DNA from: Bacteroidota bacterium
Lineage (GTDB): Bacteria; Bacteroidota; Bacteroidia; Chitinophagales; Chitinophagaceae
Length of the DNA stretch: 64,000 nt
Reading direction: 5' to 3'
NCBI GenBank assembly: GCA_005884665.1
Contig: VBAT01000034.1
Span: 122,495-186,494, forward strand
In this document: positions 15,712 to 24,422 of the stretch, one piece after another
Layout: each line of letters opens with the position of its first letter
How positions within the stretch are numbered: position 1 is the stretch's first letter
The notes under the pieces: model-generated
The model's input: only the letters and a program-made list of their open reading frames with translations
Told to the model about the DNA's origin: nothing
Databases searched by the model: none
Program-made: the position numbers and the translations under genes

Positions 15712-16770
15712 ATGGCTTCCCGTAATTTTGGCAAATTTACTATGCCATCTCCTAAAGTAGCTGTTGTAATCCTGAATTGGAACGGGAAGAAATTCCTGCA
15801 ACAATTTCTGCCATCTGTGCTCGCAGCTACCTATTCCAATCATGAAGTAATTGTTGCTGACAACGGCTCGAACGACGATTCCATTGCTTTTATGGAAAGC
15901 AACTATCCCCGTATTCGACTTATCCGGTTCGACCAGAACATGGGTTTTGCAAAGGGATATAATGAAGCATTGAAACTGGTAGAAGCGGATTATTATGCCC
16001 TGTTAAACTCGGATGCTGAGACACAGCCCCGCTGGCTGGAACCGATGGTAGACTTATTGGAAAAGGATAGCTCCATTGCAGCCTGTCAACCCAAACTTCT
16101 TTTATATGCGGATAAAAAAAGGTTTGAATACTCTGGCGCGGCTGGAGGCTGGATGGATAGGTACGGGTATCCATTTGCCAAAGGAAGGATCTTTGATGTG
16201 ATGGAAGAAGATCATGGCCAATACGACCAGGTCGAACCTATATTTTGGGCTAGCGGTGCGGCGCTGTTCATCCGGGCCAGGCTCTTTCACGAGATGGAAG
16301 GATTTGATGAATATTTTTTTGCTCACCAGGAGGAAATTGACCTCTGCTGGAGGTTACAACTGGCAGGTCATAAGATCTACTCCTGCCCTGCTTCCGTTGT
16401 TTACCATGTAGGTGGCGGAACCCTGCCAAAGGGGAATTCTAAAAAGACCTATCTCAATTTCCGCAATAACCGGATCATGCTGTCGAAGAACCTGCCTCTT
16501 TCCAAAAAGATCTGGGTCATACCTGTTCGTTATTTGCTGGATGGCGCTTCGGCGTTTAAGGGTTTACTTTCGGGTGATGGAGGTTATTTTCTTGCCGTGG
16601 TCCGGGCTCACCTGGCCTTTATCAAATGGTGGTTTTTATATAGAAAAAGAAGTCCATTTCCTGCTTCAAAGACTAATCGCTTATATGGCTATTTTAAGGG
16701 GAATATTGCCTGGCTGCATTTTGCCAGGAAGAAGAGGTTCTTTTCAGAAGTTGTAGGCAAAACAAAATAA
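15712..16770 (+). CDS. Glycosyltransferase family 2 protein (true start possibly ATG 15742)
   Basis: VAVVILNWNGKKFLQQFLPSVLAATYSNHEVIVADNGSNDDS...LLNSDAETQPRWLEPM...GFDEYFFAHQEEIDLCWRLQLAG. Confidence 0.93.
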   Translation: MASRNFGKFTMPSPKVAVVILNWNGKKFLQQFLPSVLAATYSNHEVIVADNGSNDDSIAFMESNYPRIRLIRFDQNMGFAKGYNEALKLVEADYYALLNSDAETQPRWLEPMVDLLEKDSSIAACQPKLLLYADKKRFEYSGAAGGWMDRYGYPFAKGRIFDVMEEDHGQYDQVEPIFWASGAALFIRARLFHEMEGFDEYFFAHQEEIDLCWRLQLAGHKIYSCPASVVYHVGGGTLPKGNSKKTYLNFRNNRIMLSKNLPLSKKIWVIPVRYLLDGASAFKGLLSGDGGYFLAVVRAHLAFIKWWFLYRKRSPFPASKTNRLYGYFKGNIAWLHFARKKRFFSEVVGKTK

Positions 16771-16808
16771 AAATATAAATCTGAACCCTTATTTTTGCAT
16801 CACAAAAT

Positions 16809-17033
16809 TTGACCATGAGCCAACACAGCCAATATCAACAGGAATTACAAAAAGTTCAGGACAAGGACTTTGCTCACGACTGGGTTTCCTCTTCAGCATT
16901 TTTATTTTACCTGCAAATAGCCTGTATGGTTGCTTTTCTTTTTGGTGGCTGCTATATGCTTTATACAAAGCGTTTTGAAAAGCCTGAAGTAAAGATCCAG
17001 GAGAGCACATTATATACTCCACAGTATAAATAA
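16809..17033 (+). CDS. Small single-TM hypothetical protein
   Basis: 75-codon ORF with a TM helix (FLFYLQIACMVAFLFGGCYMLY); likely ATG at 16815. Confidence 0.6.
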   Translation: MTMSQHSQYQQELQKVQDKDFAHDWVSSSAFLFYLQIACMVAFLFGGCYMLYTKRFEKPEVKIQESTLYTPQYK

Positions 17034-17114
17034 GAGGTTGAAAATATTTTTTTCAAAAAAGGCTAATGCCTTATTTTTGCCCCCCTTTAGTTCTTTATCA
17101 ATTTCGATAAAAAC

Positions 17115-17187
<73 letters not shown>

Positions 17188-17241
17188 CTAATAATCCTCT
17201 TGCCAACAGGCGGAGGATTTTTTTTGAAACTCTGGTGGTAG

Positions 17242-17259
17242 TCCCGACAAGCATCGGGA
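17242..17259. repeat. Palindromic element copy 1 (TCCCGACAAGCATCGGGA)
   Basis: Variant of TCCCGATAGCTATCGGGA, flanked by tRNA-Leu D-arm-like ggtggtag / tggtagaca. Confidence 0.8.
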
Positions 17260-17293
17260 TGGTAGACAAAATAGGACAATGCCCTGATGGTGG

Positions 17294-17311
17294 TCCCGAT
17301 AGCTATCGGGA
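17294..17311. repeat. Palindromic element copy 2 (perfect TCCCGATAGCTATCGGGA)
   Basis: Perfect 18-bp palindrome. Confidence 0.9.
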
Positions 17312-17322
17312 TGGTAGACACG

Positions 17323-17340
17323 CCCCGATAGTTATCGGGG
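17323..17340. repeat. Palindromic element copy 3 (CCCCGATAGTTATCGGGG)
   Basis: 18-bp near-perfect palindrome at the anticodon-arm position of a tRNA-Leu-like sequence. Confidence 0.85.
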
Positions 17341-17405
17341 TGGCCTGCATCGACCGTAATAGTTCTTTCATCGTGATTTGTCTAGTTTTTTGTATCAATG
17401 TCTTT

Positions 17406-17491
17406 GCCCTGGTGGTGGAATTGGTAGACACGCAGGACTTAAAATCCTGTGCGCAGCAATGCGCGTAACGGTTCAACTCCGTTCCGGGGCA
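17406..17491 (+). tRNA. tRNA-Leu (anticodon TAA)
   Basis: GCCCTGGTGGTGGAATTGGTAGACACGCAGGACTTAAAATCCTGTGCGCAGCAATGCGCGTAACGGTTCAACTCCGTTCCGGGGCA; class II tRNA with paired acceptor arm. Confidence 0.95.
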
Positions 17492-17497
17492 CTTATA

Positions 17498-17521
17498 AAG
17501 CGACTTCATGGTCGCTTTTTT
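17498..17521 (+). terminator. Intrinsic terminator after tRNA-Leu(TAA)
   Basis: AAAGCGAC-ttcatg-GTCGCTTTTTTT. Confidence 0.75.
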
Positions 17522-17527
17522 TGATTA

Positions 17528-17776
17528 ATGTACCTGGTTTACATTTTATATTCAGAGAAGTGCGACCGATATTATATTGGGTATTGTTCTGACATGTCTG
17601 CCAGGCTTGAACGACATAATAACGGGTTTGTTACTGCGACAAGGAATTGCAGGCCCTATGTAATCAAAGCGACAAAATCATTTGCAACCGAAATCGAAGC
17701 AAGGAAGGAGGAATTCCGGATAAAAAGTCAAAAAAGCCGAAAATATCTTGAATGGCTGATCGCAGGGAATTGGTAG
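17528..17776 (+). CDS. GIY-YIG nuclease family protein
   Basis: MYLVYILYSEKCDRYYIGYCSDMSARLERHNNGFVTATRNCRPYVIKATKSFATEIEARKEEFRIKSQKSRKYLEWLI; the YIL/YIG motifs and catalytic-type pattern are visible. Confidence 0.92.
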   Translation: MYLVYILYSEKCDRYYIGYCSDMSARLERHNNGFVTATRNCRPYVIKATKSFATEIEARKEEFRIKSQKSRKYLEWLIAGNW

Positions 17777-17841
17777 ACACGCCCCGATTGCTATCGGGGT
17801 GACCCGCAACGGCCGTAACGGTTCAACTCCGTTCCGGGGCA
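17765..17841 (+). pseudogene. tRNA-Leu remnant with anticodon arm replaced by a palindrome
   Basis: GGGAATTGGTAGACACG[CCCCGATTGCTATCGGGG]TGACCCGCAACGGCCGTAACGGTTCAACTCCGTTCCGGGGCA; the 3' 27 nt match tRNA-Leu(TAA). Confidence 0.85.
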
Positions 17842-17847
17842 CTACAG

Positions 17848-17880
17848 AACCCTTGACTGCACTAGCTTTCAGGGGTTTTT
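17848..17880 (+). terminator. Hairpin plus T-run after the tRNA-Leu remnant
   Basis: AACCCTTGA...TCAGGGGTTTTT. Confidence 0.5.
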
Positions 17881-18032
17881 GCATTTTTTGGGGGACGTTG
17901 GAGGCGCATTTTAATAAAAAATCAACTCTCTATTTGAGTTTTCTTAGCCGTTCAGTACAATCGTCCTGTCGGGTCGAGGACTAAAAGCGAAAAAGCGAAA
18001 GCCAAAACAACGAGGTGCCGAAGAAATTCACA

Positions 18033-18194
18033 ATGACACTCGATCAGAAAACGCCTAACAAAAATATCACACAAGGAATAATTAAGTCGGATGGTACCAT
18101 CATGGTTTATAAGGAAGGAACTCCAAAAAAAACCATTCGCAAGATAATAAAGCCTGACGGTAGCATCCCAGACTATATTTTAAACCGAGGCTGA
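18033..18194 (+). CDS. Possible small protein (53 aa), below the ORF-track cutoff
   Basis: MTLDQKTPNKNITQGIIKSDGTIMVYKEGTPKKTIRKIIKPDGSIPDYILNRG; contains an internal IIKSDGTI / IIKPDGSI repeat. Confidence 0.35.
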   Translation: MTLDQKTPNKNITQGIIKSDGTIMVYKEGTPKKTIRKIIKPDGSIPDYILNRG

Positions 18195-18293
18195 CTTGGC
18201 AGTTCATCCGCTGTGGATTGCATTGCCGATGCAAAGCCCTATAAAATCCAAATCCTTTTGATTAACCCCCGGAGGCATTTAAACTTTGGTAAG

Positions 18294-18923
18294 TCATTCA
18301 AATGCGTATTTATCCAAAAAGAAATATTGCGATTTACTGTAACCATTCGAAAAATTGAAAAAAAGTTCGCAAAAATAGGTATAGAAATTTTGTTCACCTT
18401 CCCCTGTATTACGTCTAGGTGCTCCAGGGATGAAATACATTAACGTTATCTCAGCACTTTCTCCCGGAGCTATTTTAACATTAAATCTCTTTCTATTCAT
18501 AGAATTTAAATAGCTAAAAATGTCAGTGATACGATTTAACGCGCTTGTCAATGAATCGACGCTCAATGTAGTAGAGTAAAGAAGAACTACTGTTGAATCG
18601 GCCAGGCCATTACCAGTCTTCCTAAGCTGCAAGTAAGTAGGACCAGTCCGACCTTCAATACTGTTGAGGGTTAAGGTATTCTCGCCAGCATTGTTAATTA
18701 GTAACTGATTAAAACAAACTCTCCTAGAGTCTATTTGGTTGTTATCTTTTTTATAGGCAAACTCCCTGCAATCTATTTCGCTGGGCACTATAATAATTTG
18801 ATTCCTTTGATCATGCTCTGCCTTTTGAACTAAATAAAATGTGTACCCTGTAAATAACAGTGTAATAACACTCATTATTTCACCATACCCAAATTCCTTT
18901 TTGAAACGAAACATGACGATCAA
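18294..18923 (-). CDS. Hypothetical membrane-anchored protein
   Basis: 209-aa ORF with N-terminal TM (MSVITLLFTGYTFYLV) and a beta-rich predicted exterior; no recognised family. Confidence 0.65.
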   Translation of the reverse strand: MIVMFRFKKEFGYGEIMSVITLLFTGYTFYLVQKAEHDQRNQIIIVPSEIDCREFAYKKDNNQIDSRRVCFNQLLINNAGENTLTLNSIEGRTGPTYLQLRKTGNGLADSTVVLLYSTTLSVDSLTSALNRITDIFSYLNSMNRKRFNVKIAPGESAEITLMYFIPGAPRRNTGEGEQNFYTYFCELFFNFSNGYSKSQYFFLDKYAFE

Positions 18924-20597: not shown

Positions 20598-21332
20598 CTA
20601 ATCAACCCAGGCCAGTACCAGTTGCCCGAAATAACGATAATGAATTGCCAGTTGAGAGTTCGTTTTTGAAAAAAAACAATCTATCGATTCAGTTGCTTTA
20701 TGATGCTTTTGCAATTGAATGTTCTGCTTGAAATCTACACCACCATTGCCATACCATTTGAAAACGGATTCCTTTGCAGACCAGAGGAGAGTCGTAAGTC
20801 TGGAGTCGATAGTCGATAGTCCAGGGCCAGAACCGGTGACTGCTGTCCCGATAGCTGTCGGGAGGTAAGTCGTTAGTTCTTTTTCGCTAAGGAATTTATT
20901 TTTTATCGTTTCGATCTTTGGCGAAACGTTTTCAATGTCTACCCCTACTCTTTTATCGCTGCTTACAATGGCGGCGGCATAGTCACCGCAATGAGAAATG
21001 GAAAAATGGTATCGCTCATCAGGCAGGTAAGGTTTCCGGGTATCGGCAATTTGGATCAACTCGTAGGGAAAGTCAGGAAACAGGAATTGTAATAAAAAAC
21101 GACCGGCCAGGTGCTGGAGCCTTTTATGCGGATGGGTAACATCCCTGTGCTGAGGCACATTGGCTTTAAAAAAGTCTTCTGTCTCTTCTATTTTCCAGAT
21201 ACCGAGCCTTGTTGTATCGTTGATTTGATGTTGAAAAAAAACCGGCACGAATGTGATTTTAGATGATAGATTGCAGACTTTTACAACTAAGTTTTGAGTT
21301 TGGAACGTAAGTTCTATAGTTCTGGTAAACAC
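20598..21332 (-). CDS. 4'-phosphopantetheinyl transferase superfamily protein with in-frame repeat insertion
   Basis: YHFSISHCGDYAAAIVSSDKRVGVDIE...KNKFLSEKELT...LLWSAKESVFKWYG is an Sfp-type signature. Confidence 0.9.
   Translation of the reverse strand: MFTRTIELTFQTQNLVVKVCNLSSKITFVPVFFQHQINDTTRLGIWKIEETEDFFKANVPQHRDVTHPHKRLQHLAGRFLLQFLFPDFPYELIQIADTRKPYLPDERYHFSISHCGDYAAAIVSSDKRVGVDIENVSPKIETIKNKFLSEKELTTYLPTAIGTAVTGSGPGLSTIDSRLTTLLWSAKESVFKWYGNGGVDFKQNIQLQKHHKATESIDCFFSKTNSQLAIHYRYFGQLVLAWVD
20790..20824. repeat. Period-7 tandem repeat (AGTCNNN)x5 inside the PPTase CDS
   Basis: AGTCGTA/AGTCTGG/AGTCGAT/AGTCGAT/AGTCCAG. Confidence 0.8.
20846..20863. repeat. Palindromic element copy 5 (TCCCGATAGCTGTCGGGA) inside the PPTase CDS
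   Basis: One mismatch from the perfect palindrome at 17294. Confidence 0.9.
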
Positions 21333-24404: not shown

Positions 24405-24422
24405 TCCCGATAGCTATCGGGA
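24405..24422. repeat. Palindromic element copy 6 (perfect TCCCGATAGCTATCGGGA)
   Basis: Perfect 18-bp palindrome, identical to 17294-17311. Confidence 0.9.

Follow-up and report, generated by a model that had tools for sequence, protein, structure and literature searches.

The locus raises the question of why an intact tRNA-Leu gene should be surrounded by broken copies of itself, in which arms have been exchanged for short palindromes, with the gene for a small GIY-YIG nuclease lying among them. A first-pass annotation of the window (the whole stretch of 64,000 nucleotides under analysis) had described these elements at 17230-17845 and speculated that nuclease, tRNA sequence and palindrome form a small mobile or recombinogenic cassette or, alternatively, that the chimeric copies are functional RNAs. 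Our analysis of the locus and of its counterparts in other genomes argues for the first of these ideas: the cassettes look like an undescribed kind of tiny mobile element that has inserted repeatedly in the tRNA genes of Bacteroidota.

The tRNA-Leu locus and its nuclease

We examined positions 16500-18600 of the window by ARAGORN, repeat finding and Pfam, and together with inspection of the sequence this recovered every element that had been described. The parts are the following:

17115..17188, + strand: tRNA-Gly(GCC), called by ARAGORN; the neighbouring gene in both filled and empty relatives (L181-L184), and hence the synteny anchor
17232..17280, + strand: outer 5′ tRNA-Leu remnant, from sequence and repeat finding
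17242-17259: imperfect palindrome TCCCGACAAGCATCGGGA, in the D loop of the outer 5′ remnant
17281..17372, + strand: inner 5′ tRNA-Leu remnant, nt 1 to about 60, from sequence and repeat finding
17294-17311: palindrome TCCCGATAGCTATCGGGA, in the inner 5′ remnant
17323-17340: palindrome CCCCGATAGTTATCGGGG, in the inner 5′ remnant
17361..17368, + strand: leader motif AGTTCTTT, from sequence, between the 5′ remnant and the intact tRNA-Leu; putatively boxA-like
about 17406..17491, + strand: intact tRNA-Leu(TAA), called by ARAGORN with its end at 17492
17497..17522, + strand: terminator-like hairpin and T-run, from sequence, between tRNA-Leu and the nuclease gene, whose start codon follows 6 nt on
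17528..17776, + strand: GIY-YIG nuclease of 82 aa (Pfam GIY-YIG PF01541, E 6e-8)
17766..17841, + strand: 3′ tRNA-Leu remnant, aligning to tRNA-Leu nt 12-87
17782-17799: palindrome CCCCGATTGCTATCGGGG, in the 3′ remnant in place of the anticodon arm
17848..17884, + strand: second terminator-like hairpin and T-run, from sequence, 3′ of the 3′ remnant

The inner 5′ remnant has exchanged the AAT of its D loop for the first of its palindromes and its anticodon arm for the second, and it has neither T arm nor 3′ acceptor strand. At the other end, the stop codon of the nuclease (TAG, 17774-17776) falls within the 3′ remnant, and thus the final codons of the gene, GGG AAT TGG TAG (residues GNW), are tRNA D-arm sequence. 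No integrase gene lies between the tRNA-Leu copies, where the GIY-YIG reading frame is the only family match. A motif similar to AGTTCTTT also follows the 5′ remnants of L206, L207 and L219, and a terminator-like hairpin with T-run is present in 47 of 81 comparable loci. The variable arm of the intact tRNA-Leu is unlike that of its relatives and the remnant's variable arm resembles G002 and G006, which hints at an imported tRNA 3′ half in this single case; the pattern does not hold in L041. An Rfam match to CyVA-1 (17781-17840, minus strand) lies under the gathering score and was taken as chance.

The nuclease itself has the conserved catalytic Tyr/Tyr/Arg/Glu of GIY-YIG enzymes, and a dN/dS of about 0.1, with dS near saturation, indicates purifying selection. 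Its AlphaFold model (mean pLDDT 96.5) is a bare GIY-YIG domain, and neither sequence nor model reveals a separate DNA-binding region beyond the single catalytic fold. The nearest solved relatives are UPF0213 (5e-16) and SLX1 (2e-8), with I-TevI reaching only 0.027. The protein had no match in 50,697 phage records or in a plasmid collection, a weak test that detects close relatives only.

Recurrence at other tRNA genes and empty sites

The arrangement of nuclease, tRNA and remnant is not peculiar to this locus, but was found at 28 tRNA isoacceptors in Bacteroidota. A script located tRNAs, remnants and hairpins around 186 distinct small GIY-YIG genes with enough flank, sampled at genus, family and phylum levels. 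An intact tRNA on the same strand lay within 250 bp of 126 of these genes, and one on the opposite strand near none (0/186); the order intact tRNA, GIY-YIG, 3′ remnant of the same tRNA was seen at 83 loci and the mirror order, 5′ remnant, GIY-YIG, intact tRNA, at 20 of the 186. About 1.7 would be expected by chance. A tRNA or tRNA remnant was near 162 of the 186, a figure that is inflated because most members of the profile behind the phylum survey were themselves tRNA-linked; the genus-level Pfam set, which was unselected, gave an association in 15 of 23. Nuclease matches occurred in 197 of 297 sampled genomes, with up to 19 per genome, and a scan with a single protein yielded 12 named loci.

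Within the window's own genome, the tRNA-Ala(GGC) and tRNA-Arg(TCT) loci share the anatomy: their upstream palindromes replace the same D-loop trinucleotide, and the downstream ones lie in the anticodon arm or replace it. The tRNA-Ser and tRNA-Asn loci are variants. Tandem amplification is seen behind a tRNA-Asp in a single-contig genome (L111), where five units of 315 bp are each bounded by TCCCGACTAGTCGGGA, and a Chryseobacterium isolate carries arrays as well. The same anatomy in the single-contig genomes L111, L108, L134 and L174, in the public isolate Algoriphagus alkaliphilus DSM 22703 (L211) and in an independent genus-mate record (L206) led us to reject an assembly artefact; a Chitinophagaceae MAG record is identical to G003 over the compared part.

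Two further observations belong here. A tRNA-Cys array (L194 1240-1790, G000:C33) consists of an intact tRNA followed by full-length pseudo-tRNA-Cys copies in 147-bp tandem, each with hairpins in D arm and T loop and a terminator and without a GIY-YIG gene; it is possibly a non-autonomous derivative. Furthermore, ARAGORN calls hairpin-bearing remnants genuine tRNAs (L044, L048, L057 and others), for instance as 'tRNA-Stop(tta)' or as an extra tRNA-Arg or tRNA-Pro, and automatic tRNA counts in Bacteroidota may be inflated by them.

Some relatives have empty sites with a clean tRNA gene. We located the syntenic Leu region in four genus-mates via the gene upstream of the window locus. G004 and G006 have tRNA-Gly and a single tRNA-Leu, with neither nuclease, remnant nor palindrome; G003 is a filled site that has two 5′ remnants as well as a 3′ remnant bearing two hairpins; in G002 the reading frame of the nuclease has decayed. 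The tRNA-Arg(TCT) locus is likewise filled in G000 and empty in G004. The Leu and Arg loci are thus both polymorphic for the cassette, which is present or absent at a defined site, and the empty alleles are intact. At tRNA-Ala no such comparison could be drawn, as the genus-mates lack the gene that flanks this locus. Tandem duplications alone can arise by ordinary slippage. With 28 isoacceptors, empty sites in relatives and tandem arrays taken together, mobility by insertion is well supported, and the first-pass proposal of a cassette is supported.

The nucleases behave as lineages of their own. Isoacceptor labels placed on a tree of 131 nucleases required 57 changes, compared with a mean of 104 and a minimum of 98 after shuffling, and the Met, Asn and Val clades each cover several host families. 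There are thus tRNA-type-specific nuclease lineages that do not follow the host.

The hairpins and a proposed route of insertion

We aligned the remnants to their own intact tRNA and mapped hairpins to standard tRNA numbering. A new hairpin, absent from the intact tRNA, was present in 148 of 231 remnants (64%, as against 16% after shuffling of the unmatched letters), and 83 had none that was detectable. Positions are precise and differ between nuclease clades:

nt 27-43 replaced: Val, Arg, Ala and one Met clade
nt 38-47 replaced: other Met and some Asn
nt 50-57 replaced: Asp
nt 24-34 replaced: other Asn
hairpin inserted at 21/22: Arg
paired small hairpins inserted between TTC and GAA of the T loop: Ser and others

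The earlier proposal that the palindrome substitutes for a tRNA stem therefore holds in part. Nt 27-43 are exactly replaced in many relatives, but other clades use other sites, such that stem substitution is one case of a clade-specific position. On the nuclease tree, the arm in which the hairpin lies changes 14 times, whereas the minimum after shuffling is 26 and 0 of 300 shuffles within isotypes reach 14. The median distance from the start of a 3′ remnant to its hairpin is about 17 nt. The T loops of L130, L138, L142, L148, L161 and L177 show a second hairpin class, with clean 22-bp inserts of two 11-nt minihairpins (e.g., TGCCGAAGGCA and TCCCTACGGGA) between TTC and GAA and no tRNA base lost.

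With respect to sequence, 63 of 99 distinct hairpins start with TCC and end with GGA. Stem pairs 6, 7 and 8 are kept in 90/99, 67/88 and 35/49 hairpins, respectively (shuffled means 39, 25 and 15), with different base pairs being used. Hairpin sequence changes 23 times on the nuclease tree, with a minimum of 33 for shuffles within families; it tracks the nuclease clade rather than the host family and differs between elements of one genome. Pairing that is kept by different base pairs, in a sequence that follows the nuclease, argues that the hairpin itself is maintained. Clade-specific position and sequence could reflect plain co-inheritance of linked parts.

The palindrome is also repeated elsewhere in the genome. 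CCCGATAGCTATCGGG occurs five times in the window when up to 3 mismatches are allowed (0.12 expected) and, with up to 2 mismatches, at 96 sites per strand in the 5.7-Mb genome, compared with 1 for a reversed control; the exact 18-mer palindrome has 37 genome copies and its reversed control 0. Window excess and control counts rule out chance palindromes. Among 15 sampled exact sites of the 37, four lay within 350 bp of a tRNA and the other 11 in unrelated DNA; about 0.7% per site would be expected if there are some 50 tRNA genes (P ~3e-6). The enrichment near tRNAs, for which the first reading of the locus had proposed a test, is thus borne out: the palindrome is dispersed through the genome, and tRNA loci have more than their share of it. 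Across genomes, its presence tracks that of GIY-YIG (42/59 versus 3/15 genomes, p 6e-4). The flanks of the 15 exact copies showed no constant GTAG or CGTC tag of the REP/RAYT type.

Three further occurrences were noted. The palindrome CCCGATAGCTGTCGGG at window 20847-20862 lies within the coding region of a 4′-phosphopantetheinyl transferase (20598-21332, minus strand), where it adds the residues LPTAIGTA; an exact CCCGATAGCTATCGGG at window 24406-24421 stands at the start of an open reading frame, with the minus strand reading IHLPIAIGT; and G000:C108:30586-31023 holds five exact copies at a regular spacing of 105 bp.

The explanation that we favour, and that we consider probable with real room for doubt, is a mobile cassette that resides in tRNA genes, inserts guided by tRNA homology, keeps the tRNA whole and carries in its hairpin what is probably its cognate site. 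The cassette would be a stand-alone GIY-YIG gene together with a piece of the host tRNA that has a hairpin at a fixed place. In order, it would contain the stretch of tRNA that follows the site, a terminator, GIY-YIG, the roughly 17 nt of tRNA that precede the site, and the hairpin. Its entry into a matching tRNA gene would take place by homologous exchange beyond the hairpin, always leaving one whole tRNA, while the other junction would become a partial copy (GIY-YIG, some 17 nt of tRNA, the hairpin and then the remaining tRNA, or the same arrangement mirrored on the 5′ side). Tandem arrays could then be built by further rounds or by unequal exchange. As for the motor, a structure-specific nuclease of the SLX1/UPF0213 kind might open the extruded hairpin in the remnant, and the resulting tRNA-flanked ends might recombine with an intact gene for the same kind of tRNA. 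Cutting of the hairpin, guidance by tRNA homology and transfer between cells are what we infer here. Weighing against this explanation are the 83 remnants in which no new hairpin was detected, the tRNA-Cys array with hairpins but no GIY-YIG gene, and the palindromes of the same class that are dispersed away from tRNAs.

If the hairpin is the cognate site of the cassette, it would be either a substrate of the nuclease or a dead copy of its target, and we favour the substrate with moderate confidence. A substrate would explain why the hairpin is kept up, why the resident tRNA is spared and why an SLX1-like domain suffices. A dead target would explain isotype specificity more directly, leaving an identical, unprotected resident tRNA and the maintained pairing unexplained.

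The second of these possibilities is the core of classical free-standing homing, in which the GIY-YIG enzyme would cut a tRNA gene that has no insertion, each clade at its own site, repair of the break would copy the cassette in, and the hairpin would mark the cut site in the donor copy and protect the remnant as a dead target. Isotype-specific nuclease clades that span several host families would be expected of such an enzyme, as would a hairpin position that is clade-specific even inside one isotype, and the approximately 17 nt of tRNA on the inner side of the hairpin have the scale of a homing site; there is also a precedent in phage SegB (PMC13096335). However, the nuclease has no DNA-binding module outside its catalytic domain, and a dead target requires no hairpin, yet compensatory changes maintain one. 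Furthermore, the intact tRNA-Arg genes of the filled G000 and the empty G004 are identical over their full length, so that the resident tRNA should be cut too, with the qualification that the target may include flanks. We therefore regard homing in this form as somewhat unlikely.

The dispersal of the palindrome class away from tRNAs suggests that the hairpins may be an independent repeat landing in dispensable tRNA copies. There would then be two independent things, GIY-YIG/tRNA duplications stimulated by the nuclease and a REP-like palindrome moved by another enzyme, which gathers in non-functional tRNA copies because insertions are tolerated there. TCCCGATAGCTATCGGGA is indeed dispersed in intergenic and also in coding DNA, and CCTGCCTGCCGGCAGGCAGG, from remnants of G021 and G002, is dispersed in those genomes (12 and 7 copies). 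What makes this account improbable is that hairpins with differing inner sequences sit at exact clade-specific positions (nt 27-43, 38-47, 50-57) in different families, that hairpin sequence varies with nuclease clade among the elements of one genome, and that palindrome and GIY-YIG go together across genomes.

Lastly, it is very improbable that the hairpin-bearing copies are kept as functional RNAs, whether as decoys, as signals for processing or to regulate the transcript of the tRNA or the nuclease: in many elements another hairpin precisely replaces the anticodon arm to give a tRNA-like shape, ARAGORN calls some remnants tRNAs (L044, L057) and terminator and boxA-like leader flank the tRNA, but the remnants have just one strand of the acceptor stem, the cloverleaf is broken by hairpins at many of the sites (nt 38-47, 50-57, 24-34), the 3′ remnant of the window folds no better than shuffled sequence (z -0.83), and the inner 5′ remnant (17281-17372) folds well (z -3.2) only because its two complementary palindromes pair into one long hairpin.

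To return to the mobile cassette, a bolder version of it would define a new class of element, in which the structure-specific, SLX1/UPF0213-like nuclease cuts a hairpin that the element itself has installed at a set position of partial tRNA copies, flanking tRNA directs insertion in the same tRNA gene of other replicons, and hairpin-only copies (the tRNA-Cys array, dispersed TCCCGATAGCTATCGGGA) are non-autonomous derivatives. We put this forward tentatively, as less likely than not.

Relation to known systems

Searches of open-access literature turned up neither GIY-YIG cassettes linked to tRNAs in Bacteroidota nor hairpin-edited tRNA copies. If our reading is true, it would give a function to many small genes annotated as 'GIY-YIG nuclease family protein' in Bacteroidota, explain odd partial and mis-called tRNAs in their annotation, and connect a palindrome that is widespread and dispersed with a nuclease. 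Two questions would also become testable: how selfish DNA can persist in single essential genes without destroying them, and whether a nuclease that is no more than a structure-specific domain, with no recognition of sequence, is enough for mobility.

The closest solved sequences and folds are those of UPF0213 (BH0048, 1zg2) and of the structure-specific nuclease SLX1. To our knowledge, neither is known as a mobile element or as linked to tRNAs. Elements with a tyrosine recombinase insert at tRNA genes, restoring the tRNA and leaving a partial copy at the far junction. Our loci resemble them in both respects; they differ in that there is no integrase, that GIY-YIG is the sole gene, and that the inner junctions bear hairpins and differ from one nuclease clade to the next.

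The palindromes recall REP elements and RAYT systems, which likewise comprise short dispersed intergenic palindromes with many copies per genome (PMC3733652). However, TCCCGATAGCTATCGGGA has no GTAG/CGTC tag beside it in the inspected flanks, and the palindromes at tRNA loci occupy fixed positions of partial copies beside GIY-YIG.

SegB of phages T4 and T6 is a free-standing GIY-YIG homing endonuclease (Chihara et al. 2026, PMC13096335). In T6 it adjoins tRNAs, tRNA and segB are amplified in tandem, and there is microhomology between the tRNA and the 3′ end of segB (PMC13096335). The parallels are a GIY-YIG gene beside tRNA genes of many isotypes, tRNA microhomology at the 3′ end of the nuclease gene, and tandem amplification (PMC13096335). 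Unlike the phage-borne SegB of that account, the window nuclease is chromosomal, consists of the domain only (82 aa) and is nearer to UPF0213/SLX1. The Bacteroidota loci moreover have hairpin-replaced tRNA remnants, of which the available part of the SegB report makes no mention (PMC13096335).

In anatomy, there is a further likeness to the mORFs of fungal mitochondria, which enter genes, bringing a new gene end with them and displacing the original, as in Allomyces atp6 and Glomus atp6, atp9, cox2 and nad3 (PMC3630166). In both cases an essential gene has taken up an endonuclease reading frame yet remains complete, with its 3′ end present a second time downstream of that frame (PMC3630166); this copying of the target-gene end beyond the endonuclease is seen at 83 of our 186 loci. 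However, mORFs are mitochondrial and have protein-coding targets, whereas the cassettes described here occupy chromosomal tRNA genes of bacteria, have a hairpin at a set position of the displaced copy, and occur with both 5′ and 3′ copies.
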